Virus record (IMG/VR): IMGVR_UViG_3300035232_000575
Span: 1 to 21,650 of that record
Length of the DNA stretch: 21,650 nucleotides
Strand: one strand, 5' to 3'
Source: a virus
This document shows, in pieces, positions 2,435 through 18,516 of the stretch (its first letter is position 1; every line of letters begins with the position of its first letter). A program made the translations under genes and the position numbers. The notes below the pieces were generated by a model. The model was not told where the DNA came from. It did not search any database and saw only the letters and a program-made list of their open reading frames with translations.

Positions 2435-4318
2435 ATGGCAGATACTTCGTTATTCGGTAGATTAAAGAGATTATTCTCAACTCAGGTAGTTGTTAGGAGA
2501 GTCGGTAAAGATAAATTAAAGGTAGTAGATTCTTCTAGATTACAAGGTGATGGTAATCGTAGAGGTTCAGCTTACTATGATAGGTATGGAAGATTGCATG
2601 GTTCTAACTCAAGAAAGAATTGGCAAACATACAATGAAAGGTTTAATTACCATTCAAACAAATTAGAACTATATACAGATTATGAAGCAATGGATAAAGA
2701 TTCCATTATATCATCTATCTTAGATATATACTCAGATGAATGTACACTTAAAAATGATATGGGTGATGTACTTCGTATCAAATCAACAGATGAGAAGATA
2801 AAGAAAACATTACACAACTTATTCTATGATGTATTAAACATTGAGTTCAACCTTTGGTCTTGGGTAAGGGGTATGAACAAATATGGTGATTATTATGTTT
2901 ACTTAGATATTGATGATGAGTTAGGTGTTGTAAATGCACAACCACTATCTGTATATGAAACTAGAAGAGAAGAAGGGTATGATTTAGATAATCCTTACTC
3001 AGTAAGATTCGAAGTGGAAGAACAAAACACAAACGCTATTTCACAAAGAAACAATACTAAGTTTTTAGAATCATTTCAGGTAGGTCATTTTAGATTACTA
3101 ACAGATACTAACTTCCTTCCTTATGGTCGTTCACTATTAGAAGGTGCAAGAAAGACTTGGAAACAATTAACTCTTATGGAAGATGCTATGATGATTCATA
3201 GAATTATGAGAGCACCTGAAAAAAGAGTATTTAAAATTGATATTGGAAATATTCCACCTGCAGAGGTTGATTCTTATATGGCAAACATCATAGACCAGAT
3301 GAAGAAAATACCATATGTAAATGAAACTACTGGTGATTACAATCTTAAATTCAATATGCAGAATATGTTAGAAGATTACTATCTACCTGTGAGAGGTGGT
3401 GCTAGTGGTACTGAGATTGATACATTAAGTGGAATGGAATTTGGTGGTATTGATGATATTGAGTATCTAAAGAATAGAATGTTAGCGGCACTTAAAGTTC
3501 CAAAAGCATTTATTGGATACGAAGAAGGTGTTGAAGGTAAAGCAACTCTTGCACAAGAAGATATTAGATTTGCTCGTTCTGTAGAAAGAATCCAAAAGAT
3601 TGTACTTTCAGAATTAACTAAGATTGCAGTAGTACACTTGTATTCACAAGGATATACAGATGAAGAATTAGTAAACTTCGAATTAGAACTTACTAACCCA
3701 TCTATTATATATGAACAAGAAAAAGCAAACCTTTGGTCGGAAAAAGTATCTTTAGTTTCTGATATGAAAGATTTAAAAATGTTATCACAAGAATGGATGT
3801 ATAAAAATATATTCAATATGAGTGATGATGAGTGGAAAAAAGAACAGTATAAGGTTCTTAATGATATTAAATTAGGATTTAGACATGACCAACTTGCCGA
3901 AGAAGGTAATGACCCAATTAAAACTGGTGAATCGTTTGGTACTCCACATGATTTAGCAACATTACAACAAAGTGGTGAAGAAGGTGGTGATGATAGCGGA
4001 GCAAATGCTGGATTCCCAACCGTTGAAGACACAGGTGGAGCACCAGAGGGTGGATTTGAAGGAGCAGGTAGACCTAAAGAAAGTGGTAATTATCAAACGG
4101 ATGAGAATCCATTTGGTAGAGACCCAATTGGTAGAAAGGCCTTATCACAGAAAGAATCATATACGGCTCGTAATAAAAAAGAAGTTGATACATTCTTAGG
4201 TAATATGAAAACTAAAATAAAAAGTAGAAATATTATAGTAGAATCGTTAAAAGAAGACGGTACAAATGAAACTTCTTCATTATTAGATGAGAAAAATATA
4301 CTGAATTCTAATAATTAG
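2435..4318 (+). CDS. gp20: Portal vertex protein (T4 gp20-like)
   Basis: The portal is the dodecameric ring at the unique head vertex; it nucleates prohead assembly and is the channel for the terminase motor and the tail. The 627-residue product has the T4-like portal layout. A basic N-terminus is followed by an alpha/beta core with the conserved stretch YTDYEAMDKDSIISSILDIY near residue 80, then the SVYETRREEGYDL region near 180. The long helical segment with RIMRAPEKRVFKIDIG lies near 255-270, followed by LKVPKAFIGYEEGVEGKATL near 355-375. The final ~120 residues are a low-complexity Gly/Glu/Asp tail, a probable disordered extension. It starts at ATG 2435 behind an A-rich leader with no Shine-Dalgarno, unlike most genes here. 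It follows terminase directly; T4 genes 18 and 19 are not between them. Confidence 0.95.
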   Translation: MADTSLFGRLKRLFSTQVVVRRVGKDKLKVVDSSRLQGDGNRRGSAYYDRYGRLHGSNSRKNWQTYNERFNYHSNKLELYTDYEAMDKDSIISSILDIYSDECTLKNDMGDVLRIKSTDEKIKKTLHNLFYDVLNIEFNLWSWVRGMNKYGDYYVYLDIDDELGVVNAQPLSVYETRREEGYDLDNPYSVRFEVEEQNTNAISQRNNTKFLESFQVGHFRLLTDTNFLPYGRSLLEGARKTWKQLTLMEDAMMIHRIMRAPEKRVFKIDIGNIPPAEVDSYMANIIDQMKKIPYVNETTGDYNLKFNMQNMLEDYYLPVRGGASGTEIDTLSGMEFGGIDDIEYLKNRMLAALKVPKAFIGYEEGVEGKATLAQEDIRFARSVERIQKIVLSELTKIAVVHLYSQGYTDEELVNFELELTNPSIIYEQEKANLWSEKVSLVSDMKDLKMLSQEWMYKNIFNMSDDEWKKEQYKVLNDIKLGFRHDQLAEEGNDPIKTGESFGTPHDLATLQQSGEEGGDDSGANAGFPTVEDTGGAPEGGFEGAGRPKESGNYQTDENPFGRDPIGRKALSQKESYTARNKKEVDTFLGNMKTKIKSRNIIVESLKEDGTNETSSLLDEKNILNSNN

Positions 4319-4319
4319 G

Positions 4320-4327
4320 ATATTTAT
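4320..4327 (+). promoter_or_regulatory. Candidate late promoter box ATATTTAT after the portal gene
   Basis: ATATTTAT begins two bases after the portal stop codon and lies 42 nt before the next ATG (4370). The eight-base core matches the other boxes at gene-cluster boundaries, although the following base is T instead of A. The 51-nt gap holds no other clear signal except the Shine-Dalgarno-like AGAGGTG just before ATG 4370. Confidence 0.35.
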
Positions 4328-4369
4328 TAACAAATATATAGGTTACTCTACCATAATTAGAGGTGAATA

Positions 4370-5218
4370 ATGAAGAAATTAAAACACAGTAAATACAAAA
4401 ATACAGGAATTCTGTTCGAACTATTGGTTAGACAGATAGCTACTGATACTTTAAACAACAGAGATTCTGTAGCTACTAAAATCATTAAAGAACATTTCAG
4501 TAACAATACAGAGTTAGCTAAAGAACTTAGATTATATAAGTCATTTATTGAAGAAAATTTCACGTCTGAATATAAGGCCTCTGAATTTGTAAACATTATC
4601 CTAAATCAGAGAACAAAATTAAACGAATCTTCATTAAGTAGACAAAAATACAATTTGATTAAAGCAATCAAAAAGAATTTTGTAATAGAAGATTTCTTTA
4701 AGTATAGAGTTAATAACTATAAAGAGAATGCATCTATATATAAGTTATTCGAACACACTACATCGGATAATCCTAAAGAATATGTAGAATGTAAATCCAC
4801 ACTAATGGAATCTTTAACAGGTAAATCACAAAATACTGATAAAGTTGTATCTACTATTAACGAAGAGTATTCTAAACAGCCAAAAGAAGTAAGATTACTT
4901 GCTTGGAAAATGTTGGTTGAGAATTTTAACAACAAATACACTACATTAACTGATAAACAACAAGATATTCTTAGAGAATACATAAACTCAGTTGATAATT
5001 CTGAAAAATTAAAGAAATTTGTAGTAAGAGAATGTAACTCATTATCAAAAAATATTAATTTAATTAAAGTTACTGATAAAGTTACTAAAATTAAAGTAAA
5101 CGAAGTATTAAAACTAATCACCAAAGTAAAAACATCTAAAGTAATTACCGAATCTCAAATTTTATCATTACTGAGATATACAGAACTACATAATGAATTG
5201 AAAAGGGTATTCAAATGA
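4370..5218 (+). CDS. Head-module protein of unknown function between portal and prohead protease
   Basis: This is a 282-residue, Lys- and Asn-rich, predominantly helical protein. It starts at ATG 4370, well placed behind AGAGGTG. The N-terminus (KHSKYKNTGILFELLVRQIA, residues 5-24) resembles a family I associate with marine T4-like phages next to the portal, but I know no tested function. No catalytic motif, membrane segment or signal peptide is visible. Sites of the form hydrophobic-x-Glu-Ser occur (KLNESS near 85, LMESL near 147), compatible with cleavage by the prohead protease, but they are not at the N-terminus. Its position corresponds to T4 genes 67/68, whose products are prohead core proteins. 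A core or assembly role is inferred from position only. The stop overlaps the next start as ATGA (5215-5218). Confidence 0.8.
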   Translation: MKKLKHSKYKNTGILFELLVRQIATDTLNNRDSVATKIIKEHFSNNTELAKELRLYKSFIEENFTSEYKASEFVNIILNQRTKLNESSLSRQKYNLIKAIKKNFVIEDFFKYRVNNYKENASIYKLFEHTTSDNPKEYVECKSTLMESLTGKSQNTDKVVSTINEEYSKQPKEVRLLAWKMLVENFNNKYTTLTDKQQDILREYINSVDNSEKLKKFVVRECNSLSKNINLIKVTDKVTKIKVNEVLKLITKVKTSKVITESQILSLLRYTELHNELKRVFK

Positions 5219-5703: not shown

Positions 5704-5834
5704 GTTCAGACAAAAAAATATTAAAAGAAGAACTTTCAAATAAGGATTTGGAAAACATTCGTCTACTTATAAGATATGAAGTAGCACAAATCATGTTTGA
5801 TTTATATAGAAAACGTAAAGTTTGGGGAGCATAA
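5700..5834 (+). CDS. Small 44-residue protein, GTG start, coupled between core protein and protease genes
   Basis: This short frame starts at GTG 5700 inside the upstream stop (GTGA, 5700-5703) and ends with TAA 5832-5834, which shares its last base with the protease ATG (TAATG). It encodes 44 residues, mostly charged and helical: an N-terminal KKILKEEL, then a region with LENIRLLIRYEVAQIMFDLY and a basic end (RKRKVWGA). Seamless overlaps on both sides and filling of an otherwise empty 130-nt interval are the main evidence that it is real. A short core-associated or regulatory role can be inferred only from position. The ILKE at residues 7-10 resembles the N-terminal hydrophobic-x-Glu sites in neighbouring head proteins. 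Confidence 0.6.
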   Translation: MSSDKKILKEELSNKDLENIRLLIRYEVAQIMFDLYRKRKVWGA

Positions 5835-6451
5835 TGGGCAGATTACTTATAGATACAATTCCTTTTACTATGACTAAGAGTCAAATCAATGAATCATTGG
5901 AAGATAACAATGGTAGATTGATTGTTAATGGTGTACTCCAACGTGCTGAAGCTGAAAACCAAAATGGTAGAGTTTATCCACGTTCAATCTTAGAAAGAGA
6001 AGTGGAAAAATACAAAGGTAGAGAAATTAAAGAAAATAGAGCGTTTGGTGAGTTAGACCATCCTGAATCTTCTGTAGTTGAACTAAAAAACACTTCACAT
6101 ATCATCAGAGAAGTATATTGGAAGGGTGATGATGTAATGGGTAAGGTAGAAGTACTTAAAACTCCAGCAGGGAACATCCTTAAAGAACTTTTAGAGGCAG
6201 GTTGTACTGTTGGTATCTCTTCAAGAGGTATGGGTTCTGTAAAAGAGGCTACTAATGGTAAATCTGTTACTGTAGAAGATGATTTTGATTTAATTTGTTG
6301 GGATTTTGTTTCAAACCCATCAACACATGGTGCATTTATGAGACCTGTAAACGAATCAGTAGTTGGAAAGAGTAAAACCCCATCATATAAGAAAATTAAT
6401 ACTTTAGTTAGAGATATCATCTGTGAAATTGATGGTATTTGTGCTATTTAG
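5834..6451 (+). CDS. gp21: Prohead maturation protease (T4 gp21-like)
   Basis: This serine protease sits in the prohead core and cleaves scaffold, internal and capsid proteins after assembly, then itself. ATG 5834 is preceded by GGGGAG and is preferred to an in-frame TTG at 5822; the product is 205 residues, the usual size. Family landmarks are NGRVYPRSILEREVEKY (44-60), His76 in GELDHPES, Ser129/Ser130 in GISSRGMG, and a downstream acidic region with WDFVSNPS (Asp157). His and Ser fit the catalytic residues of the T4 gp21 family; the third residue cannot be fixed by eye. INE-Ser at residues 18-21 is a likely self-processing site near the N-terminus and VNE-Ser lies near the C-terminus. It is followed 10 nt later by the repeated 925-residue protein, its probable substrate. 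Confidence 0.93.
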   Translation: MGRLLIDTIPFTMTKSQINESLEDNNGRLIVNGVLQRAEAENQNGRVYPRSILEREVEKYKGREIKENRAFGELDHPESSVVELKNTSHIIREVYWKGDDVMGKVEVLKTPAGNILKELLEAGCTVGISSRGMGSVKEATNGKSVTVEDDFDLICWDFVSNPSTHGAFMRPVNESVVGKSKTPSYKKINTLVRDIICEIDGICAI

Positions 6452-6461
6452 GAGATAATAA

Positions 6462-8942
6462 ATGAAATTAACTGATATATTAAACGAAAGTGTTTACGTT
6501 AAGAACAAAGAAACAGGTAATGTTTATCAAGTAAAAAATGCAAACCCAGCAAAACACGAACCACCATCTAAAGGTGAAGTTAAAAAAGCTAAAGAAGATT
6601 CAAAGGAAGAACCTAGTAGTAAGAAACCATCAATGGATGATATTAAAGATAATTTAAAAAATATGTCGGCCGATGAATTCGTTAAGTATGGTGAAGAAAA
6701 TATATTACCACATCTAAAAAACAAATCAGACATAAAAGATTATGAGGCGGCAATAGAAGCTTTAAAAGGTGGAAGATTAAAAAGAATGATGGCCAAATCT
6801 GATATCAAAAATATTACAGGTGATGATAGAAAAGGAAGAGGTTTTAATGAATCAATGAAGGTGAATGAAGCTAAGTACGATATCGGAATGGCTCGTAAAG
6901 GAAACGGATTAACTGTTTACAATAAAGCAGAAGAAGAAAATGGTGATTATAAAAATGTAGCTCACATTGATTCAAAAGGTAAAGTAAAATATTACGATAA
7001 AAAAGTTCCATCTAAGATTAAGAAACAAATCGAAGCTGAGGCTAAGAAGATGATGGAAATAAAAATTGAGGGAACTATGAAATTAACAGACCTATTAAAC
7101 GAAGATGTTTATGTTAAAAACAAAAAGACTGGGAACACTTATAAAGTAAAAAATGCAAACCCATCAAAACACGAACCACCATCCAAAGATGATATAGCAA
7201 AAGCTAAATCAGATGCAAATGATGAACCAAACAGAGAACCTAAAAAGAATGGGCCTAAAATTGAATTATCCAAAGATTTCGATAGTTTATATTATGCTGA
7301 TGATATTGAAAGTGATGTTCAAAACCTTGAAGGTAAAATATCTGATGAAGATTATAAAAAAATTATGAGCCAGGTAGAGGATTTAAGTATGGTACAGCAG
7401 GATGCTGAAGAAGCTGACAATTATGATTCTCCAGAAGAAGCAGAAGAAGATGGGTTAGATGTAAGACCAAAAGAAGAAATCGAAAAGATGGCAAGTGATA
7501 TAAAAGACATGATTAGACAAGCCAATGGTACTCCAAAAGAAGAACCTAAAAGTGAACCAAAAAAAGATGAACCTAAAAGTGAACCAAAGCGAGTACCTTT
7601 AGATAAAAATGATAGCTATTATATCAAAACTGCAGTAGAAAAGAAAATGGGCCCGGCCGCTTTCAAAGCACTTAGTTATGGAGATATGCAAAAAGCTTAT
7701 AATGATGAAATGGAATCTAGGGGTTGGGAAAAAGGTGATGATGGAGAGTGGACTAAACCTGCAAACGAATCATCTAAAAGAAAAATAAAAGAATCAAAGG
7801 GAAACACAATGAAATTAAAAGACTTACTATCCGAAGATGTTTATGTTAAAAATAAAAAGACGGGAAATACATATGCTGTAAAAACTGCTGACCCATCAAA
7901 ACATGAACCACCATCTAAAGGTGAAGTAGAAAAAGCTAAATCAGATGCAAATGATGAACCAAACAGAGAACCTTCAAAGGAAGAACCTAAAAAGGATGAA
8001 CCTAAAAAGGATGAACCTAAAGGTGAAAAACCAAACCTGACTCATTTAGATTATGACCAGGCGGAAGAAGATTTAGAAGAATTGAGGTATGCTGGAGAGT
8101 TATCAGATAATCCACGTTTACTTTACAATATTGGTGATATGGTTAAACTTTTACAATCAGGTCATGCTACTGAAGAGGATATACAACGAGTAGATGCTAT
8201 GAGAGATACAATAGACGATATGAACATGAGTAATCCTGATGCCGGTCTAGAAAAGGTAGATACTGCTTTAGCAGCTGCAATAAAATCTACCAAAAATGAA
8301 AACGTTTCTATGAAATTAAAAGACTTATTAAAAGAATCATTTAAAAGTGGTAAAGTTTATTCAAACCCATTTCACACTTCATTTGTAAAAGAAGATTTTT
8401 CAAAAGATAAAAACGAAATGACAAATGAAGAAAAGATGGCTTTCTTAGAAGCGGTTAAATCATACAGAAAATTTGGTGAATCAATCTACAGAAAAGACGG
8501 ATTAGCTGAAGTATATGAATCAATCAGAAGTGTAGTAGAAAATGCTAGTAAACATATGGTTAAAGAAACTGAAGGTTCATTTGATGGAATTACAGTTGGA
8601 AGACACGTAAAGAGAATGAATGAATCATTTAAAGTATTTGAAAAAACTTTAAGAGATGTTGTTACATTAGAACAAAGACTAACCTCATCATATGATGATA
8701 TCGGTGAAACATTACAGAAGTATTATGAAATTGCTGATTTATCAACCGAAGGAAATGAGTTCGGAGCCGCTAGGGCAAAAGCAATCGCAAATGGTGATAG
8801 TGAATTTGAAGTAGATGGTAAAAAGTATCCTGTAAAGGGTGTTGATAAGGATGATAAGGAAAATGCGAAAGAATTTACTAATGAATCTAAATCAATGAAA
8901 CTTACTTCTATGTTAAATGAATCATTCGGATATGGTGAACTA
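6462..8942 (+). repeat. Five in-frame repeats of an N-terminal targeting/protease-site module
   Basis: Repeat starts are the ATG codons at 6462, 7077, 7809, 8310 and 8895. All are in the same frame and each encodes MKL plus a hydrophobic-x-Glu ending. Copies 1-3 stay similar for ~150 nt (to about 6600, 7225 and 7970); copies 4 and 5 share only the first ~10 codons, followed by Ser-Phe. Copies 2 and 3 retain purine-rich ribosome-site-like stretches before their ATG (GAGGGA at 7068-7073 and AAAGGGA ending at 7802). This fits an origin by duplication and fusion of separate genes. Confidence 0.8.
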
Positions 8943-9239
8943 CCATCATCTAAATTAATGAAGATGAAAGTATCAGCAAAAGAGATGATGAATTCAGTTA
9001 AGAATAAAAAAGTAAACGAATCCGAAGTAGTAGAAGAAGAAAAAATCAATGAGGGTTTTTCAACTTGGGAAATGAGATTTTCAGATATGAATCTTGGTGG
9101 TGTTAAACTATCTAAGAAAAATGTATATAAAGTAAAAGCAAGAAATACAGTTGAAGCTATTAAGAAAGCAGCTAAAATGGCTGGTGTTGAAAAGAATTGG
9201 ATTGCAACTGAAACTCATTCACTAAAGAAAATAGGATAA
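6462..9239 (+). CDS. Modular internal-head-protein-like polyprotein with five MKLxxxLxE units
   Basis: This is a 925-residue Lys/Glu/Asp-rich protein starting at ATG 6462 behind AGGAG. Five segments begin with the same nine-residue pattern Met-Lys-Leu-(Thr/Lys)-x-x-Leu-x-Glu, at residues 1, 206, 450, 617 and 812. In the first three this continues as VYVKNKxTGNxY and then HEPPSK, so ~50 residues are repeated; the tails differ. Unit 1 ends with a YDIGMARKGNGLTVYN domain. Unit 2 has acidic and Pro-Lys-Glu linkers. Unit 4 is helical. Unit 5 ends with a KARNTVEAIKKAAKMAGV domain. T4 internal proteins carry a ten-residue capsid-targeting sequence (MKTYQEFIAE) cut after Glu by gp21, and the repeated nonapeptide resembles it in length, spacing and final hydrophobic-x-Glu. 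Cleavage after each Glu would give fragments of about 205, 244, 167, 195 and 105 residues. Head-cargo function is inferred. Confidence 0.85.
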   Translation: MKLTDILNESVYVKNKETGNVYQVKNANPAKHEPPSKGEVKKAKEDSKEEPSSKKPSMDDIKDNLKNMSADEFVKYGEENILPHLKNKSDIKDYEAAIEALKGGRLKRMMAKSDIKNITGDDRKGRGFNESMKVNEAKYDIGMARKGNGLTVYNKAEEENGDYKNVAHIDSKGKVKYYDKKVPSKIKKQIEAEAKKMMEIKIEGTMKLTDLLNEDVYVKNKKTGNTYKVKNANPSKHEPPSKDDIAKAKSDANDEPNREPKKNGPKIELSKDFDSLYYADDIESDVQNLEGKISDEDYKKIMSQVEDLSMVQQDAEEADNYDSPEEAEEDGLDVRPKEEIEKMASDIKDMIRQANGTPKEEPKSEPKKDEPKSEPKRVPLDKNDSYYIKTAVEKKMGPAAFKALSYGDMQKAYNDEMESRGWEKGDDGEWTKPANESSKRKIKESKGNTMKLKDLLSEDVYVKNKKTGNTYAVKTADPSKHEPPSKGEVEKAKSDANDEPNREPSKEEPKKDEPKKDEPKGEKPNLTHLDYDQAEEDLEELRYAGELSDNPRLLYNIGDMVKLLQSGHATEEDIQRVDAMRDTIDDMNMSNPDAGLEKVDTALAAAIKSTKNENVSMKLKDLLKESFKSGKVYSNPFHTSFVKEDFSKDKNEMTNEEKMAFLEAVKSYRKFGESIYRKDGLAEVYESIRSVVENASKHMVKETEGSFDGITVGRHVKRMNESFKVFEKTLRDVVTLEQRLTSSYDDIGETLQKYYEIADLSTEGNEFGAARAKAIANGDSEFEVDGKKYPVKGVDKDDKENAKEFTNESKSMKLTSMLNESFGYGELPSSKLMKMKVSAKEMMNSVKNKKVNESEVVEEEKINEGFSTWEMRFSDMNLGGVKLSKKNVYKVKARNTVEAIKKAAKMAGVEKNWIATETHSLKKIG

Positions 9240-10152: not shown

Positions 10153-11208
10153 ATGGCAAATAGAAAAGATTTGTTATCTGAAGCTATTGCTGATGCTAAG
10201 GCCGTTAAAGAAACTGCTCTTGCAAATGCAAAACTCGCTTTGGAAGAAGCCTTTACTCCTCAACTTCAATCAATGATTTCTGCGAAATTATCTGAAGAAT
10301 CTGAAGAAGATGAAGAAGATAATATCAATGATGATTATCATAACGATAAAGAAAATGAAGATTTAGATTCAACTGATTTAGGTTCTGGCGACAACGCTGA
10401 ACCATCTGATGATTCTAACGATTCATCTGATATCGAAAATGATGATGACTTGTACGAAGATGAAGAAGAAGGTGAAGAAGAAACAGAAACAGAACCAAAC
10501 GTAGCTGAAGAAGAAGGTGAAGAAATGTCTGACCCAACTGATGACACTATGGAAGGTGAAGAAGATGACGATGAGTTAGATTTAGCAAAAGTTATTGGTG
10601 AATTAGAAGCTGAAATGGATGGTATGGATGGTGCTGAACCAGACGAACCAACTGATGAAACTTACGAATCAGAAGAAGACGGTATGTCTGATGATGGTGA
10701 AGAAGAAGCTGAAGCTGAAGAAGATGATTCCGATGACCCAGAATTTGACTTAGATGAAGTAATCGCTACATTAAAAGAAATGGAAGACGATGAAAAAAAA
10801 TCTAAAGAGAAAGAGTTAGAAGAAGAAGAAGATTCTAAAAAAGATGATTCTGTAAGAGAAGAATTAGAAGAAGCTTATGCTACTATTGAAAGTTTAAGAG
10901 GAACTATCAATGAAGTGAATTTGCTAAACGCTAAACTACTTTACACTAACAAACTATTCAGAACATTTGATTTAAACGAAGGACAGAAAGTAAAAGTACT
11001 TGAAAACTTCGATAGAACATCATCTGTAAGAGAAGTGAAATTAGTATTCTCTACTATCGCTGAAAACTTAAATGTTTCTAAAAAGAAAAGAACTGTTGTA
11101 AAAGAAGGAATGGCTTCAAAACCAACAAAAAGTTCTGCACCGAAGAAAATAATTTCTGAGGGTAATGACATGGCCGCTAGATGGAAAAAACTAGCAGGTT
11201 TAAAATAA
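10153..11208 (+). CDS. gp22: Prohead core scaffold protein (T4 gp22-like)
   Basis: The scaffold forms the internal core around which the capsid shell assembles and is then degraded by the prohead protease. The 351-residue product starts at ATG 10153 behind TAGGAGAA. The N-terminus contains DLLSE-Ala (6-11), a likely protease site, followed by an Ala/Lys helix. Residues ~48-230 are extremely acidic (runs of Glu/Asp). The C-terminal third has the conserved T4-like scaffold segment LLNAKLLYTNKLFRTFDLNE followed by FDRTSSVREVKLVF (roughly 258-300), then another candidate site IISE-Gly near the end and a basic RWKKLAGLK tail. Position directly before the capsid gene agrees with T4 gene order. Confidence 0.9.
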   Translation: MANRKDLLSEAIADAKAVKETALANAKLALEEAFTPQLQSMISAKLSEESEEDEEDNINDDYHNDKENEDLDSTDLGSGDNAEPSDDSNDSSDIENDDDLYEDEEEGEEETETEPNVAEEEGEEMSDPTDDTMEGEEDDDELDLAKVIGELEAEMDGMDGAEPDEPTDETYESEEDGMSDDGEEEAEAEEDDSDDPEFDLDEVIATLKEMEDDEKKSKEKELEEEEDSKKDDSVREELEEAYATIESLRGTINEVNLLNAKLLYTNKLFRTFDLNEGQKVKVLENFDRTSSVREVKLVFSTIAENLNVSKKKRTVVKEGMASKPTKSSAPKKIISEGNDMAARWKKLAGLK

Positions 11209-11234: not shown

Positions 11235-12869
11235 ATGGATTTAAAAAACATCCTTAATGAAGGTTCTTCTCACCAAGCAAGATTGTCAGAAACGACAAGA
11301 GCTCTTGCATCAAAGTGGGAAAAAACCGGTCTTTTAGAAGGTATTGACAACGACGTTGAAAAAGCTGGCGTTGCATCTCTTTTAGAAAACCAAGCAAGAC
11401 AATTAGTAAAAGAAGCTTCTTCTACTGGTACTTCTGCAAATTCAGAAGAGTGGGCTGGTGTAGCTCTACCATTAGTAAGAAGAATTTTTAGTGAAATCGT
11501 AGCAAAAGACTTTGTGTCAGTTCAACCAATGAACTTACCATCTGGTCTTGTATTCTATCTAGATTTCAAATATGGTACTAACCAAGTAGGTTTCGCAACT
11601 GGGTCTGGTAAAGATTCACAAGCTGATTCTGTATTCGGTATTACTGAAACATCAGGTGACCCATCAGGTGGTTTATATGGTGCTGGTAGATTTGGATACT
11701 CAATCAATGATAAAACATCTGCGGTACAAACATTAGGTACTGTTGGAGCAAACAAATTCGTAACTTCATCTGTAGCAATTTCAGATGTAAATTATGATAC
11801 TCAGTTTACTTCATCTAACGGTGCTGCTATCGCTAGTGGACTTATCTATAAAGTTGCTGTACCTAAAGCATCTATCGCAGGATACGATGAAAAAGGTATC
11901 AGAGGATTTAGAGTAGAGAGTGCTGATATTGATGACCAATATCCACAGTTTACTGTAGAGAGTGGTGATGATATAGTATTTATCGCTAAAGGTGCTTTAG
12001 ATGCTTCTACACTTGTAGTTAAGTATCACGCACAACCAACTGATGTATCAAGAGGTGATTTCGAAGCATCTGGAACTTCCCTAAGTGGAAACCCAGAAGT
12101 AGATATCGATATTCCTGAATTGAATGTTGAAATGAAGAGTTTACCAATTGTTGCTAAGACTAGAAAGTTAAAAGCACAATGGACTCCAGAATTCGCACAA
12201 GATTTAAACGCATATCACTCAATTGATGCTGAAGCTGAATTAACTTCAATGTTATCTGAGTATATCTCACAAGAAATTGATTTTGAGATTTTAGATATGT
12301 TAATTTCTGATGCTAAATCAACTGGATACTGGTCATCACAAGTAGGTAGAGAGTGGAACGGTTCTGCATTCGCTAACTATTCTACAACAGGTGCTCAAGC
12401 TTCTGCATTCAACCAACAAGCATGGTTCCAGACTTTAGGAACTGTGATTGCAGGTGTATCTAACAAAATTCACCAGAAAACTTTAAGAGGTGGTGCTAAT
12501 TTCTTAGTAGTATCTCCAGATGTTGCAACTATAATCGAATCTATCCCAGGATACGCTTCTTCAGCGGATAACGGTGATGCTCAATTCGCATTTGGTGTAA
12601 CTAAAGTTGGTGCTTTGAACAGTAGATTCCAAGTTTATAAGAATCCTTATATGAAAGAGAACGTAATCCTAATGGGATACAGAGGAACACAATTCCTTGA
12701 AACAGGAGCAGTATATGCACCTTACATTCCATTAATTATGACTCCACTAGTATATGACCCGAAAAACTTCACTCCAAGAAAAGGTGTAATGACACGTTAC
12801 GCTAAGAAAATGTTAAGAGGTGAGTTCTACGGTAAGATTTATGTAGATGGTTTACACAAAATTCAGTAA
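11235..12869 (+). CDS. gp23: Major capsid protein (T4 gp23-like)
   Basis: This HK97-fold protein builds the head shell. The 544-residue product starts at ATG 11235 behind TAGGAGAA, 26 nt after the scaffold stop. The propeptide ends by comparison with T4 at LVKE60-Ala61 (T4 cuts FLTE65-Ala66), and an extra ILNE-Gly lies at 6-10. Conserved stretches are VQPMNLPSGLVFYLDFKYG (~95-113), the segment KTRKLKAQWTPEFAQDLNAY followed by DAEAELTSML (~310-345), and a C-terminal region with PYIPLIMTPLVYDP and TRYAKKMLRGEFYGKIYVDGL. Between ~130 and ~290 lies a variable Gly/Ser/Asp-rich insertion domain. The very strong ribosome site and the terminator right after it fit the most abundant virion protein. 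T4 gene 24 (vertex protein) is not adjacent. Confidence 0.97.
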   Translation: MDLKNILNEGSSHQARLSETTRALASKWEKTGLLEGIDNDVEKAGVASLLENQARQLVKEASSTGTSANSEEWAGVALPLVRRIFSEIVAKDFVSVQPMNLPSGLVFYLDFKYGTNQVGFATGSGKDSQADSVFGITETSGDPSGGLYGAGRFGYSINDKTSAVQTLGTVGANKFVTSSVAISDVNYDTQFTSSNGAAIASGLIYKVAVPKASIAGYDEKGIRGFRVESADIDDQYPQFTVESGDDIVFIAKGALDASTLVVKYHAQPTDVSRGDFEASGTSLSGNPEVDIDIPELNVEMKSLPIVAKTRKLKAQWTPEFAQDLNAYHSIDAEAELTSMLSEYISQEIDFEILDMLISDAKSTGYWSSQVGREWNGSAFANYSTTGAQASAFNQQAWFQTLGTVIAGVSNKIHQKTLRGGANFLVVSPDVATIIESIPGYASSADNGDAQFAFGVTKVGALNSRFQVYKNPYMKENVILMGYRGTQFLETGAVYAPYIPLIMTPLVYDPKNFTPRKGVMTRYAKKMLRGEFYGKIYVDGLHKIQ

Positions 12870-13677: not shown

Positions 13678-16600
13678 GTGCCAGATTATACAGGAACATT
13701 TACTGGAAGTTTTAGTGGTAGTTTTATAGGTGATGGTGGTAGTTTAACAAATGTAAACTATAATACTCTCGCAAATAAACCTTCTACAATTCAACCATTT
13801 CAAGGAAATTCTATATTAGCGAATAATGCATTTAGAAGCAATTTTAATACAAACGTAAAGACAAGATTAGATGCTGAGAATGTAATAAGTTCATCAGCTC
13901 AATTAACTACCGAATTTGATTCTAGATACGGTAATGAGTTAAATGATAATTTAGTTAGTGGTTCATCACAAGTTTCTTATGCGGGGCTATCAAACGTACC
14001 AAGTGGTATTGTAAGTAGTTCATCACAAGTAACCATAACCGAATCACAAATTAGTGACTTACAATCTTACTTAACTTCACTTCCAAGTGGAACAATATCA
14101 TCTTCAGCTCAGGTTACAATTACAGAATCTCAGATTTCTGATTTACAATCATATTTAACATCTGAAACAGATTCTCAAACTCTTTCTTTGAGTGGAAATA
14201 CTCTTACTATATCAAATGGTAATTCAGTATCACTACCATCATCGGAACTTCCTGACGGGGTTGTATCATCATCTGCTCAAATAACAATAACCGAATCACA
14301 AATTAGTGATTTACAATCATATTTAACATCTGAAACAGATTCTCAAACATTATCAATAAGTGGAAATCAGTTAACAATAAGTGGTGGTAATGTTGTTACT
14401 ATACCAACTGGTTCTGATTTACCTGATGGTTTGGTTAGTGGAAGTGTATTAAGAACTTTAGATGGAACAGGTGTTATAAGTGGTTCTGTATTAAGAACTT
14501 TAGATGGGACTGGAGTTCTAAGTGGTTCTAAAACTGAAATTCCCGCAGGAACTATAAGTTCATCAGCACAAATTACAGCATTGGGTTATTCAACTACTGA
14601 TAGTGATGACCAAACACTTACATTTAATTCTGTAAGTAAAACCCTATCTATTTCATCTGGAAACTCGGTAGATTTATCAACACTCGCTGGTGGTGGTGGT
14701 GGTGCTGGTGGTTCATCTATATGGACTACTGGTTCTTCATACTATAAGGTATCAGCTGATTTACAAGTAACAGGTTCGTTTGGTATAAGTGGTATTCCAA
14801 ATGTATCCGCATCTGTAGCACAAGCGATTGCAGGTAATGTTCTTCCAAATGGAACTATTAGTGGTTCATCTCAAATTACAATTAATGAATCACAAATTAG
14901 TGACTTACAATCTTACTTAACTTCACTTCCAAGTGGAACTGTTTCAGGTTCATCACAAGTAACGATTACAGAATCACAAATTTCTGATTTACAATCATAT
15001 TTAACTTCACTTCCAAGTGGAACTGTTAGTGGTTCATCTCAAATAACCATAACAGAATCTCAGATTAGTAATTTACAATCTTACTTAACATCTGTACCTG
15101 CTGGAACTATAAGTTCCTCAGCACAAATTACGGCATTGGGTTATTCAACTTCTGATTCTGATTCACAAGAATTATCTATTAGTGGAAATGACCTTAGTAT
15201 AAGTTCTGGTAATACAATTACATTACCAACTACATCACTTCCAAGTGGAACTGTTTCAGGTTCATCTCAGATAACCATAACAGAATCTCAGATTAGTGAT
15301 TTAGGAACATATCTAACTTCAGTACCTTCTGGAACTGTTAGTGGTTCAACTCAAATCACATCAGTAGTAACTGATTCATACATTTCGGCATCAGCCGCAA
15401 GTAGTGGGTTTGGTGCTGGTGGTGGTGTATCTGATTTTACACAACTAACAAATGTACCAACTGGATTAGTAAGTAGTTCAAACCAAATTACATCTGTAGC
15501 AACTGCATCATTTGTAGGTGGTAATGTATCATCATTTGATGGTAATAGAATTATATCTAACACAGATTTACCATCAAACATATATAATGTTAACTTTGGA
15601 ACGAGTGGTTCTGTATCAAACTTTATAGAAAAAATATTTTTCCCTAATACATCACCAACAATTAGTACAACGGGATTCACACTAGGTGAATTTGTAGTAA
15701 GTGGTTCTTCTGTTGGAACTGTTAGTGGAACAGATGCAGAAGGACAATCGTTTACATATAGAACAGCAAGTTCATATACTTCTGATTTCTTTAGAATATC
15801 ATCGGCAGGTGCTATAACATTAAATACTAAATCAACATCTTCAATGAATACTGATAATACACCAGGTAGTGGTTCACATCCTTTCTTAGTAGAGGCAGTA
15901 GATACATTTAGTGGTGTTGGTTCTAAAACAATATACATTAGGGTAACTCCTAACACTGCTCCAAAATGGAGACAAACATCAACAGGTGGTTCAGTAGTAA
16001 CATCATTTACACAATCACTAAATGAAAACTCAACTGCGGCAAATAACAAAGTTAGAGTATATTTTACTGATGATGAAAGTGATACTATAACAATAGGTAG
16101 TGGTTCAGTTCCAACTGGATTTACAATTACTAAAGGAAGTACATATGTTCAGTTAAACCAAACAACAGCTTCATTAGATTATGAAACTACACCAAAATAT
16201 GAGTTAGTTTTAACTGCAAGTGATGAGCACTATGTAAGTGGCGATGATACCGATTCAATATCGTACTTACCATTTCAAATAGCAGTAACAGATAATACTG
16301 GTCCATCTGTAAATGACCAAACATTAAGTTCAATAAATGAAAATTCATCCGATGGAACAACTGTTGGTTCAATAACCGCAACAGACCCAGAAAGTGATAC
16401 TATAATCTTCTCTAATTTTACATTACAAAATGCTAATTTAGATGGTGGTTCTGATATCAAAGGAACTTTAGGTGGTAATTCGTTGTACGACCCACATTCA
16501 GACCCATTCCAATGTAGTTCGGCTGGTGTTGTAACAAGAAAGAACGGAGTTTACTTAAATTCTGATGTTGCTAATCGATACATATATCAGGTAACCGTAA

Positions 16601-18516
16601 CAGATGCGTTTAATAATACTACTGATACTGCAAACATAACAATTGGTATAGATGATGATGTTCAGAGTTCTATTAGTAAAAATTGGACTAATTTATATAT
16701 TATAGAATCTGCATTAACAAATAGTAGTATTTATTTAGATAGTGCGGGTAGAAGTGGAACTGTAGGTATGTTATCTTCGGCCGTTGCTCAAAGATGGGAA
16801 GTATCATCTACGAATGATTTAATAAAGATTGATTACGCTGGTTCTGATACAGGTTCATATGGGCCATTATACTTAAAATCAAACCTTAGTGGTTCTGGTG
16901 TGACTACTGGTCAAACAATCAACCTCGCAATTACTGCATCGGAACATGGATTTGAAACAACTAAACAATTTGTAGATTATACTATTACTGTTGCTACTAA
17001 TAATTCTCCGAATGGAACTTATACCGATACATCAGCTAACCTAAATACAAATTTAGGACGTTCTGGTAGTTTAATAACAACATTGGCGTGGAGTGATACT
17101 GAAGGTGATACAATAAATCACTCATCATTCGTATTCACAGATGCAAGTGGACAATTAAATTCGATTCAGAGTGGAGATAGTTATTTAATACAGGCAAAAA
17201 ATAATTTAAGTGCTTCTAATTATACAATTTCAGGAGCTATTAAGGATGAACATGGGTTTAGTACATCAACTGAATCAAAAACTATTACAATTGCTCAATC
17301 TAATACAGGAACTTTAGGTGGAGATACTACTTCATATATAATCGAATCAGGATTGAATAATGAATCAATTAGAGATGCAAGTGGATTTGGTGCAGGTAAC
17401 CAATCACAAATGAGTGTATCTTATTCACCAAACTATGGTTCACAGGCAGTACAAGGTTCATCTTGGACTTCATCAAACCCTGCGATATCAATTAATACAA
17501 GTGGACAATTATCATTAGCAGCTCATGTAAGTGGTTCACCTTCATCAAGTGGTGATACCTTTGTATCTACAATTGGATTTGAAGACCAATATGGTAACGC
17601 TGGAAGTGGAACTGTAACTGTGAATGTATTTGCTAATCAAGCACCAACTGCTACATTTACAAATCAAACAACAAAACTTAACACAGATAGTGCGTTAAAT
17701 AATGTAACTTTAGTTAGTATGAGTATTTCAGATACGGAATCGGATACACCATACTCAGTTACACTTAGTGGAACTAATGCTAGTAGTTTACAATTAAGAT
17801 ATGGAAATGTAAATTCATCATCTATTGAAATACAATCAAACACCAGTTTATCCGCAGGTACTTACACATACAATGCAACTGTAACTGATAATTTTGGTAA
17901 ATCTCAATCATATAATGGTAGAACTTTCACAATTGCACAATCTGCAGATTATGGTAAAGTTTATGTTTATCGTTCAAACTTTGGTTCTTCCGCTGGACTT
18001 GGTTCTAACTACAACGGAGTAATGGGAATTAGTACAGTAGATAGTGGAACACCACCAGAAGTAACAGCATTTACAGCAAACAGTACATCACCTATGAGAT
18101 TAATAAGTTCCTCATTAGGAGATGCATCATTAAGTATGTCTGGAGGAGCTACCGCAACTAGAGTGGCAATATTAAGTGGTAGTAAATTAGATACAATACT
18201 AAACGATGCCGGGCCATTTACAATGGGTAGTACGGCCGAACAATATATAGTAATTACACCATCTGGTTCAGATATGTATGGAGTACCAACATCTGTAAGA
18301 GATTCATTTGGTGGTTCAACTGCAGGAGAGTTTGTAATGAGTGTAAACGCCGATGGTGGTGGGTATGGAATTGAAGCAACTGATATACATCAATTAGATA
18401 TAGAAGGTTCTTTAAATGGATATGATAAATATGTAGTAATAGGTAGAACGGGACATAATGCCGCTGGTTCGGTATATATAAGATTTACTGAAAGTTCTGG
18501 TTCAATACCAAGTTAA
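13678..18516 (+). CDS. Large modular tail-fibre or adhesin-like structural protein with cadherin-like domains
   Basis: This is a 1612-residue Ser/Thr/Gly/Asn-rich protein starting at GTG 13678 with AGAGGAG upstream. The N-terminal YTGTFTGSFSGSFIGDG resembles phage fibre and virion-attachment starts. Residues ~90-620 contain seven copies of TxxESQISDLQSYLTS separated by SGTVSGSSQ-type linkers and short beta segments. From ~650 to ~1420 there are about seven cadherin- or immunoglobulin-like beta domains, recognisable by NEN/IIES starts, acidic DxESD loops, LDYETTPKYEL and terminal ITVTD/ITIAQS strands. The Asp/Glu pattern suggests Ca2+ binding in some of them. Residues ~1422-1612 form a distinct C-terminal domain that could be the receptor-binding or trimerising tip. 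No enzymatic motif is recognised. It shares modules with the next gene and is probably a long tail fibre or related virion surface protein. Confidence 0.8.
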   Translation: MPDYTGTFTGSFSGSFIGDGGSLTNVNYNTLANKPSTIQPFQGNSILANNAFRSNFNTNVKTRLDAENVISSSAQLTTEFDSRYGNELNDNLVSGSSQVSYAGLSNVPSGIVSSSSQVTITESQISDLQSYLTSLPSGTISSSAQVTITESQISDLQSYLTSETDSQTLSLSGNTLTISNGNSVSLPSSELPDGVVSSSAQITITESQISDLQSYLTSETDSQTLSISGNQLTISGGNVVTIPTGSDLPDGLVSGSVLRTLDGTGVISGSVLRTLDGTGVLSGSKTEIPAGTISSSAQITALGYSTTDSDDQTLTFNSVSKTLSISSGNSVDLSTLAGGGGGAGGSSIWTTGSSYYKVSADLQVTGSFGISGIPNVSASVAQAIAGNVLPNGTISGSSQITINESQISDLQSYLTSLPSGTVSGSSQVTITESQISDLQSYLTSLPSGTVSGSSQITITESQISNLQSYLTSVPAGTISSSAQITALGYSTSDSDSQELSISGNDLSISSGNTITLPTTSLPSGTVSGSSQITITESQISDLGTYLTSVPSGTVSGSTQITSVVTDSYISASAASSGFGAGGGVSDFTQLTNVPTGLVSSSNQITSVATASFVGGNVSSFDGNRIISNTDLPSNIYNVNFGTSGSVSNFIEKIFFPNTSPTISTTGFTLGEFVVSGSSVGTVSGTDAEGQSFTYRTASSYTSDFFRISSAGAITLNTKSTSSMNTDNTPGSGSHPFLVEAVDTFSGVGSKTIYIRVTPNTAPKWRQTSTGGSVVTSFTQSLNENSTAANNKVRVYFTDDESDTITIGSGSVPTGFTITKGSTYVQLNQTTASLDYETTPKYELVLTASDEHYVSGDDTDSISYLPFQIAVTDNTGPSVNDQTLSSINENSSDGTTVGSITATDPESDTIIFSNFTLQNANLDGGSDIKGTLGGNSLYDPHSDPFQCSSAGVVTRKNGVYLNSDVANRYIYQVTVTDAFNNTTDTANITIGIDDDVQSSISKNWTNLYIIESALTNSSIYLDSAGRSGTVGMLSSAVAQRWEVSSTNDLIKIDYAGSDTGSYGPLYLKSNLSGSGVTTGQTINLAITASEHGFETTKQFVDYTITVATNNSPNGTYTDTSANLNTNLGRSGSLITTLAWSDTEGDTINHSSFVFTDASGQLNSIQSGDSYLIQAKNNLSASNYTISGAIKDEHGFSTSTESKTITIAQSNTGTLGGDTTSYIIESGLNNESIRDASGFGAGNQSQMSVSYSPNYGSQAVQGSSWTSSNPAISINTSGQLSLAAHVSGSPSSSGDTFVSTIGFEDQYGNAGSGTVTVNVFANQAPTATFTNQTTKLNTDSALNNVTLVSMSISDTESDTPYSVTLSGTNASSLQLRYGNVNSSSIEIQSNTSLSAGTYTYNATVTDNFGKSQSYNGRTFTIAQSADYGKVYVYRSNFGSSAGLGSNYNGVMGISTVDSGTPPEVTAFTANSTSPMRLISSSLGDASLSMSGGATATRVAILSGSKLDTILNDAGPFTMGSTAEQYIVITPSGSDMYGVPTSVRDSFGGSTAGEFVMSVNADGGGYGIEATDIHQLDIEGSLNGYDKYVVIGRTGHNAAGSVYIRFTESSGSIPS
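14031..15326 (+). repeat. Imperfect in-frame repeats in the fibre gene
   Basis: Seven copies of a ~48-nt core encoding ESQISDLQSYLTS occur here, often with an adjoining SGTVSGSSQ linker. Some copies are nearly identical in DNA: the stretch from 14041 to about 14093 recurs from about 14886, and the block with ETDSQ at 14138-14178 recurs at about 14308-14348. An eighth copy lies in the next gene near 19010-19045. Such repeats favour slippage and recombination. Confidence 0.85.

Follow-up and report, generated by a model that had tools for sequence, protein, structure and literature searches.

What does the reading frame behind the prohead protease gene of this virus encode? In the window, a 21,650-base virus record from IMG/VR analysed here at its full length, a single open frame at positions 6462-9239 translates into 925 aa. 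A preliminary description had read it as several internal-protein genes fused by loss of stop codons into one precursor, each unit being cargo and the whole being cut into about five mature products. We conclude that the frame is probably the prohead polyprotein of a T4-like phage, which would be targeted by its leaders, cut by the adjacent protease and freed as separate modules.

The 925-residue frame and the head genes around it

Translation and shuffling bear out the five restarts with MKL(T/K)xxLxE that the preliminary description had reported, namely MKLTDILNE at residue 1, MKLTDLLNE at 206, MKLKDLLSE at 450, MKLKDLLKE at 617 and MKLTSMLNE at 812; composition-matched shuffles of the protein contain the motif 0.0006 times on average, and none of 5,000 shuffles contains it more than once. 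The ~50 residues said to be common to units 1-3 amount to 48 aa, in which units 1 and 3 are 73% and 81% identical to unit 2. The ribosome-site-like purine stretches are likewise present in the DNA just 5' of the internal ATGs of units 2 and 3 (ATTGAGGGAACT-ATG and AAAGGGAAACACA-ATG), and units 4 and 5 of the window gene have no purine or SD-like stretch before their internal ATGs. In leaders 2 and 3 the final Glu is followed by Asp instead of Ser. The frame is no artefact of assembly, for many independent contigs carry long fused homologues, and it is translated and constrained, as judged from NG86 dN/dS values mostly of about 0.1-0.3 for the KYDIG cassette, the leader with its tag, the unit-2 cargo, unit 4 and unit 5. 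A single value is higher, 0.45 for unit 5 against L005, where the two C-terminal cassettes differ.

The gene does lie directly behind a gp21-like protease gene, as had been stated, and downstream of it in the block come a 137-aa gene, S21, the acidic scaffold-like ORF and the gene for a gp23-type capsid protein (Table 1). We took ATG 5834 as the protease start, the gene-calling tool having listed TTG 5822. The protease of the window carries NE↓S (the arrow marks the predicted cut) close to both ends, with Glu codons at 5891-5893 and 6353-6355; among relatives, those of the window's subgroup have an NE↓S-type motif near the N-terminus, and in the whole group the catalytic domain closes with NE↓S or NE↓G. 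T4 gp21 is itself processed at its C-terminus and has a motif match near its N-terminus (PMC9026906). The capsid proteins of nearly all relatives start with MDLKNILNE↓G or M(D/N)TNSLLNE↓S and keep LV(K/S)E↓A at about residue 60. This is near the point at which T4 gp23 sheds its 65-aa propeptide. Because a similar leader opens the phage's own capsid protein and NE↓S flanks its protease domain, the leaders can be called capsid-targeting-like and the sites gp21-type, which supports the earlier assignment at the level of sequence motifs. The ORF at 10153-11208 has no family match in Pfam or PHROG, its scaffold-like label being drawn from position and composition.

Table 1. Features of the polyprotein locus in window coordinates; arrows mark predicted cuts
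Feature	Position	Strand	Evidence or remark
Prohead protease, gp21 / Peptidase S77 family	5834..6451	+	Pfam PF03420 E=5e-35; PHROG_207 head maturation protease
Predicted polyprotein gene, 925 aa	6462..9239	+	Fused homologues of 600-1001 aa in many independent contigs
Leader 1 MKLTDILNE↓S, aa 1-9	6462..6488	+	Strong ribosome site aggagataataaATG 5' of start
Cassette 1: VYVKNK tag (aa 10-47) and variable cargo, end FNE130↓S	6489..6851	+	
Cassette 2, KYDIGMARKGNG module (KYDIG), aa 137-205, after VNE136↓A	6870..7076	+	Segment cluster of 22, 14 different left neighbours; folded core
Relic ribosome-site-like GAGGGAACT 5' of leader 2	7068..7076	+	Now read as EGT
Leader 2 MKLTDLLNE↓D, aa 206-214	7077..7103	+	P1' Asp, doubtful site
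Unit 2 VYVKNK tag, aa 215-260	7104..7241	+	Also precedes other variable C-termini in L135-L143
Unit 2 cargo, aa 266-436, end ANE436↓S	7257..7769	+	Wholly replaced in L001/L002 (DNA alignment); two folded stretches
Relic ribosome-site-like AAGGGAAA 5' of leader 3	7797..7804	+	Now translated (SKGNT)
Leader 3 MKLKDLLSE↓D, aa 450-458	7809..7835	+	P1' Asp, doubtful site
Unit 3 VYVKNK tag and cargo, aa 459-613	7836..8300	+	
Leader 4 MKLKDLLKE↓S, aa 617-625	8310..8336	+	
Unit 4 core, aa 626-808	8337..8885	+	In every relative; solo gene in one clade and in Microcystis phage Mel-JY01
Leader 5 MKLTSMLNE↓S, aa 812-820	8895..8921	+	
Unit 5 cassette part a, aa 821-853, end VNE853↓S	8922..9020	+	
Unit 5 cassette part b, aa 865-925 (FSTWEMRF), after INE864↓G	9054..9236	+	STEEKRIV cassette instead in others
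Second cassette-bearing gene, 137 aa	9245..9658	+	Constant N-terminus, VNE↓S at Glu codon 9422-9424, exchangeable C-terminus
Acidic protein at gp22 scaffold place, LNAKLLYTNKLF core, leader ending DLLSE↓A	10153..11208	+	Position and composition
Major capsid protein, gp23 family	11235..12869	+	PHROG_138 E=5e-73; leader MDLKNILNE↓G, propeptide end LVKE60↓A

Cleavage-type motifs and the modules between them

In the proteins of this gene block, NE[SAG] occurs 126 times in non-redundant contexts against 14.4 expected (8.8x), the enrichment being about 13.5x with Ser at P1', 6.6x with Gly and 5.4x with Ala. The residue preceding the Asn is V, L, I or M in 111 of 144 cases. Control motifs in the same block are depleted (ND[SAG] 0.43x, NQ 0.34x, NK 0.53x), and NE[SAG] itself stands at 0.75x in 64,225 contexts from the remaining ORFs of two relatives. 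In the 95.9-kb relative G007, the polyprotein, the adjoining cassette gene and the protease stand out clearly for NE[SAG]. The looser pattern hxE[SAG] was dropped as a marker on its own, since a repetitive tail protein (ORF1612) is likewise enriched through its ITES repeats, NE[SAG] being the specific form. Cleavage by T4 gp21 follows L/I-X-E, and the capsid-targeting sequence of IPIII comprises its first 10 aa (PMC9026906); gp245 of SPN3US cuts after A-X-E and prefers Ser at P1' (PMC10052503). By its sequence, [V/L/I]-N-E↓[S/A/G] is a T4 gp21-type cleavage motif.

Cleavage after Glu214 and Glu458, as expected in the preliminary description, is doubtful because P1' is Asp at both places and NE-D is only 2-fold above expectation, compared with 5-13 fold for A, G and S. 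In T4, an IPIII leader that carries Asp at position 10, which is not the position concerned here, is targeted and not processed (PMC9026906); by analogy, targeting by leaders 2 and 3 might work despite their poor cleavage sites. The MNES721 site, which is part of a conserved helical segment of unit 4, may perhaps be left uncut.

The AlphaFold model of the polyprotein has low global confidence (mean pLDDT 55) with folded islands that comprise the three tags (aa 10-47, 215-252 and 459-497), the KYDIG module (138-199, mean pLDDT of the core 72-82) and, more weakly, the unit-3 cargo; the unit-2 cargo model is folded at about 270-355 and 377-435 with pLDDT 80-92. Each of the seven sites within aa 1-608 is in or beside a low-confidence stretch of the model (P = 2e-4); the test was confined to this part, as units 4-5 were modelled with low confidence, and the L030 model (mean pLDDT 45) was left out. 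Sequence searches of the polyprotein and 39 relatives against Pfam, PHROG, NCBIfam and PDB gave no function, weak matches being taken as chance. Foldseek with the polyprotein model found no PDB match below E = 1.6 and a single short match to an uncharacterised protein of Tenacibaculum phage pT24 (76 columns, prob 1.00, E = 0.007), a phage that tblastn at E <= 10 did not recover. Two readings of motifs by eye, an ADP-ribosyltransferase in L020 and an HNH nuclease in the C-termini behind the tag of L138 and L139, were confirmed by none of the searches.

Gene organisation and cassette exchange among relatives

The whole-protein search gave 19 loci and the unit-4 profile search 223 relatives, of which 80 were kept. 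The nearest isolates by capsid-protein identity are Microcystis phage Mel-JY01 (60%), Flavobacterium phage immuto (55%) and Rhodothermus phage RM378 (37%). The loci that were read out share the gene order of the window, with protease, one or more unit-4 ORFs, a 'MDYSDILQDIS' gene, S21, scaffold-like and capsid genes and occasional extra genes. The ORF that bears unit 4 ranges from 154 to 1001 aa, and relatives do encode units separately, a point that the preliminary description had proposed to check. The L016/L085 clade has unit 4 as a gene by itself, which is 190 aa long, begins with MKLKDLLNES and is followed by a separate MIKLKKLINES gene that corresponds to unit 5; in Mel-JY01, unit 4 is a 154-aa gene right behind the protease; L072 encodes separately two cassettes found elsewhere as internal modules, both behind a MIKLKDIL-type leader of their own. 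Unit 4 is found in every relative and the remaining units come and go, so the earlier assumption that all units are equal cargo is not supported. Shared by the whole group, unit 4 may be a prohead core protein rather than cargo. It has no relative in the bacterial and archaeal genome collection and so points to no host.

The same modules occur among relatives in a different order, in different genes, or alone behind their own leader. We cut 133 distinct block ORFs from IMG/VR contigs at NE-type sites and leaders and clustered the segments into 106 families, many of which border several different neighbours and several of which occur in more than one gene type. KYDIG segments border 14 different neighbours on the left and 8 on the right, and 12 different segments follow the constant opening segment of the 137-aa gene. 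L030, L041 and others carry the SAIGG cassette at the N-terminus of their polyprotein; L016/L085 have it inside the gene of the 137-aa type, and L072 has it as a solo gene. Two cassettes each are held by units 1 (10-130 and 137-205) and 5 (821-853 and 865-925), and there are more sites than five, with cuts predicted after Glu9, 130, 136, 436, 444, 625, 808, 820, 853 and 864, which makes an estimate of about five mature products too coarse. The tag EDVYVKNKKTGNTYxVK of units 1-3 was also seen in front of hypervariable C-termini in other contigs (L135-L143).

Breakpoints were mapped with strict alignments among 39 block proteins and compared with 1,000 circular shifts. Of all 596 breakpoints, 38% lie within 3 aa of NE[SAG] or hxE[SAG] (chance 14%, maximum of the shifts 21%), a share that rises to 53% for breakpoints backed by at least six pairs (chance 14%, maximum 28%); right-hand breaks peak on the Glu itself, with 40 at offset 0 and 21 at +1. 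L001, the closest relative of the window, is nearly identical to it in the DNA on either side of unit 2 but has an unrelated unit-2 cargo. This is a single recent cargo swap, bordered by the end of the shared tag (AACAGAGAACC) and by AAC-GAA, which encodes the NE of NE↓S. Judged from these comparisons, cassette exchange at protease-site motifs and leader repeats is the main evolutionary process in the block. The fusion of separate genes by stop-codon loss is therefore not supported as the whole story. Part of that earlier proposal stands: five leaders of relatives have lost the internal Met (ATC, ATT or ATA) and kept the rest of the motif, which together with the translated relic ribosome sites may reflect separate genes joined into one frame, the leader being retained as a peptide and not as a start.

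Proposed processing and comparison with known head proteins

What we infer beyond the motif, its specificity and position, the cassette exchange and the coding constraint, namely packaging, cleavage and injection, would run as follows. Unit 4, as a conserved core protein, would be strung together with exchangeable small modules, and the precursor would bind the prohead core through its MKLxxLLNE leaders, acting as capsid-targeting or core-binding sequences. At head maturation the adjacent gp21-family protease would cut the [V/L/I]NE↓[S/A/G] linkers and free the modules inside the head as separate mature proteins or peptides. With cassettes exchanged at cleavage motifs and leader repeats, any piece flanked by a site on each side would come free intact, regardless of what it adjoins. 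Of the modules, at least those that fold and swap fast probably travel in the head as internal proteins and enter the host with the DNA, in the manner of T4 IPI-III or Alt. Cleavage products do not have to remain as cargo, since nearly all mapped cuts in SPN3US merely remove N-terminal propeptides (PMC10052503) and the fragments of T4 gp22 and gp67 mostly leave the head (PMC9026906). The further step, to a natural plug-in cargo array in which one leader-packed precursor is cut by the head protease into several different host-injected proteins, is one that we put forward tentatively, holding it slightly less probable than its opposite.

The product could instead be a prohead core protein only, like T4 gp22, gp67 and gp68, whose chopped fragments exit to make room for DNA and whose modules would be filler without a later role. 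This would suit the location of the gene between gp21 and gp23 homologues, the constant and mostly helical unit 4, and the fate of the T4 core proteins, which are also encoded beside gp21, receive several gp21 cuts each and fall into many pieces that mostly leave (PMC9026906). We consider it unlikely, as filler needs no folded, exchangeable modules that stand alone with their own leader elsewhere and are under purifying selection. The T4 proteins serve as scaffolding, whereas the modules of the window are distinct, folded and interchangeable, and the place of gp22, an acidic core protein just before the capsid gene, is occupied not by the polyprotein but by the separate scaffold-like ORF.

Two further readings dispense with cleavage or with the long precursor. 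If NE[SAG] and the leaders were repeated DNA serving as recombination joints, the product would be one large, uncut multidomain internal protein; the leader and tag repeats are indeed near-identical in DNA, and the Asn codon AAC is over-used in the motif (64% vs 41%, P = 2e-8). Yet 27 different 9-mers encode the motif, its P1' and P3 preferences match gp21 specificity, Asp is avoided at P1, the sites are located in linkers, and the motif is also fixed at single-copy places where a cut is expected (the protease ends and the capsid leader), which makes this reading very improbable. Least probable of all is the expression of downstream units from the internal ATGs, with the long frame incidental: the SD-like stretches that suggest it are confined to units 2 and 3 and absent from units 4 and 5, the internal Met is replaced by Ile in relatives that keep the rest of the motif, and many contigs maintain frames of 600-1001 aa without stops.

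Under the polyprotein reading, the closest parallel is with the T4 internal proteins, which are the standard case of head-packed injected proteins, each a single gene with one leader. IPI, IPII, IPIII and Alt have in common with the window gene a short N-terminal leader ending in hydrophobic-x-Glu, a gp21-family protease, diverse mature parts and a head-gene setting. The leader of ~10 aa typical of such targeted proteins is found here also on the capsid protein and on the unit-4 and cassette solo genes, and the phage encodes both the gp21-family motif and, in the adjoining gene, the Peptidase_S77 enzyme. They differ in that each T4 protein has a separate gene, whereas the window has several leaders and modules in one frame, with internal cleavage-like sites and swaps at them; this fusion extends to many relatives, and one clade has separate genes. 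Pfam, PHROG, NCBIfam and PDB sequence searches detected no homology to IPI, IPII, IPIII or Alt. The T4 internal proteins are a highly diverse set of defence proteins of which the targeting sequence alone is conserved (PMC3012670). It is the folded, fast-exchanged modules behind a common leader that resemble them, the tag of units 1-3 in front of hypervariable C-termini elsewhere being another hint, and on this ground the polyprotein would belong with the T4 internal-protein and targeting-sequence system as a variant, not as a member of an IP family.

Other systems share single aspects of the arrangement. Polyvalent proteins of phages and conjugative elements combine several unrelated domains per chain, are thought to enter the host with the DNA and have been likened to polyproteins by their authors (Iyer et al. 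2017, PMC5512222). The polyprotein and its relatives have the multiple domains and shuffled architecture in one chain; they differ from polyvalent proteins, which bear recognised effector domains and embedded peptidases (PMC5512222), in showing no known domain or embedded peptidase and in their proposed release by the phage head protease in the prohead. The phiKZ-like giant phages SPN3US and 201phi2-1 have large sets of head proteins that are cut after Glu by a gp21-related protease and ejected, but in SPN3US one N-terminal propeptide is removed per gene and no multi-cargo precursor is described (PMC10052503). The crAss001 proteins gp45 and gp46 are also capsid-stored cargo ejected into the host, but have separate genes, and the paper mentions neither a polyprotein nor a protease (PMC10172136). 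In agreement with the preliminary description, we found no T4-type internal protein described as a multi-unit precursor in the open-access journal literature.

A group of T4-like marine phages would thus obtain several cargoes from one gene, a mode of loading that we did not find described. If the plug-in array is true, the protease site doubles as the swap joint, and the injected set can be renewed module by module with the packaging machinery unchanged. If confirmed, the arrangement would explain the quick diversification of injected proteins in such phages, would provide in the leader and the VNE↓S borders a sequence rule for finding unknown injected proteins in metagenomes, and would offer a model from nature for packing several proteins at a fixed ratio into one phage head.

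Control and codon use of the putative cleavage motif

The tail-fibre region of the window encodes a 1612-aa protein with many ITESQISDLQSYLTS repeats, in which hxE[SAG], the looser form of the putative gp21-type cleavage motif NE[SAG], is enriched from repetition alone; this protein is a useful negative control for the motif. In the polyprotein ORFs of the window and of loci L022-L101 in relatives, the Asn codon AAC accounts for 64% of the Asn residues in NE[SAG], versus 41% at other Asn positions of the same ORFs (P = 2e-8). Recombination between sites may have left this excess.

Tag-bearing proteins and additional genes

The VYVKNKKTGNTY tag of polyprotein units 1-3 is also present in other phage-like contigs, flanked by a common N-terminus and hypervariable C-termini. 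By eye, the C-termini in L138 and L139 appear HNH nuclease-like, and the L140 and L143 proteins carry a ParB-like DGHHRW motif; family searches confirmed neither likeness. In Microcystis phage Mel-JY01 (L020), a gene within the same head-gene block has a product with an N-terminus similar to this tag and, on visual inspection, a resemblance to Alt/VIP2-type ADP-ribosyltransferases, an identity not confirmed by Pfam, NCBIfam and PDB searches.

In L095 and L090 an extra gene separates the 137-aa-type gene from S21; it is probably DNA methyltransferase-like, judging by eye from DPFAGGSVRG and TCPPYHDL. Away from its head block, the 172,940 bp relative G001 (L114-L122) carries a gene cluster that contains NE[SAG] sites and a single MIKLKQLLNES leader; the genes of this cluster are candidates for further internal proteins.

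Coordinates of the features discussed
Feature	Source	Position
Repeat protein	Window	13678-18516
Tag-bearing loci	L135, L136, L138, L139, L142	about 2570-4800 in each
Tag-bearing loci	L140, L143	about 2983-4030
Putative ADP-ribosyltransferase-like gene	L020	8645-9811
Inserted gene	L095	7727-9049
Inserted gene	L090	6616-7935
Gene cluster	G001	24742-31031
Leader	G001	27418-27714
Scaffold-place protein	L104	7731-8972

Modules in other proteins

The small module CWKNYQMVGMKKKNGKDVPNCVP, found in L030 and L041, is widespread in cyanophages and Methylophilales phages according to phage-record matches, and in Melnitz it lies inside a protein starting with MKKFSEIIEA. The scaffold-place protein of Flavobacterium phage immuto (L104) contains a ~70-aa module (GFEQWLDSVSAQMDKF...) in tandem repeat between E|G sites, as if the exchangeable cassettes could sit in the scaffold too.
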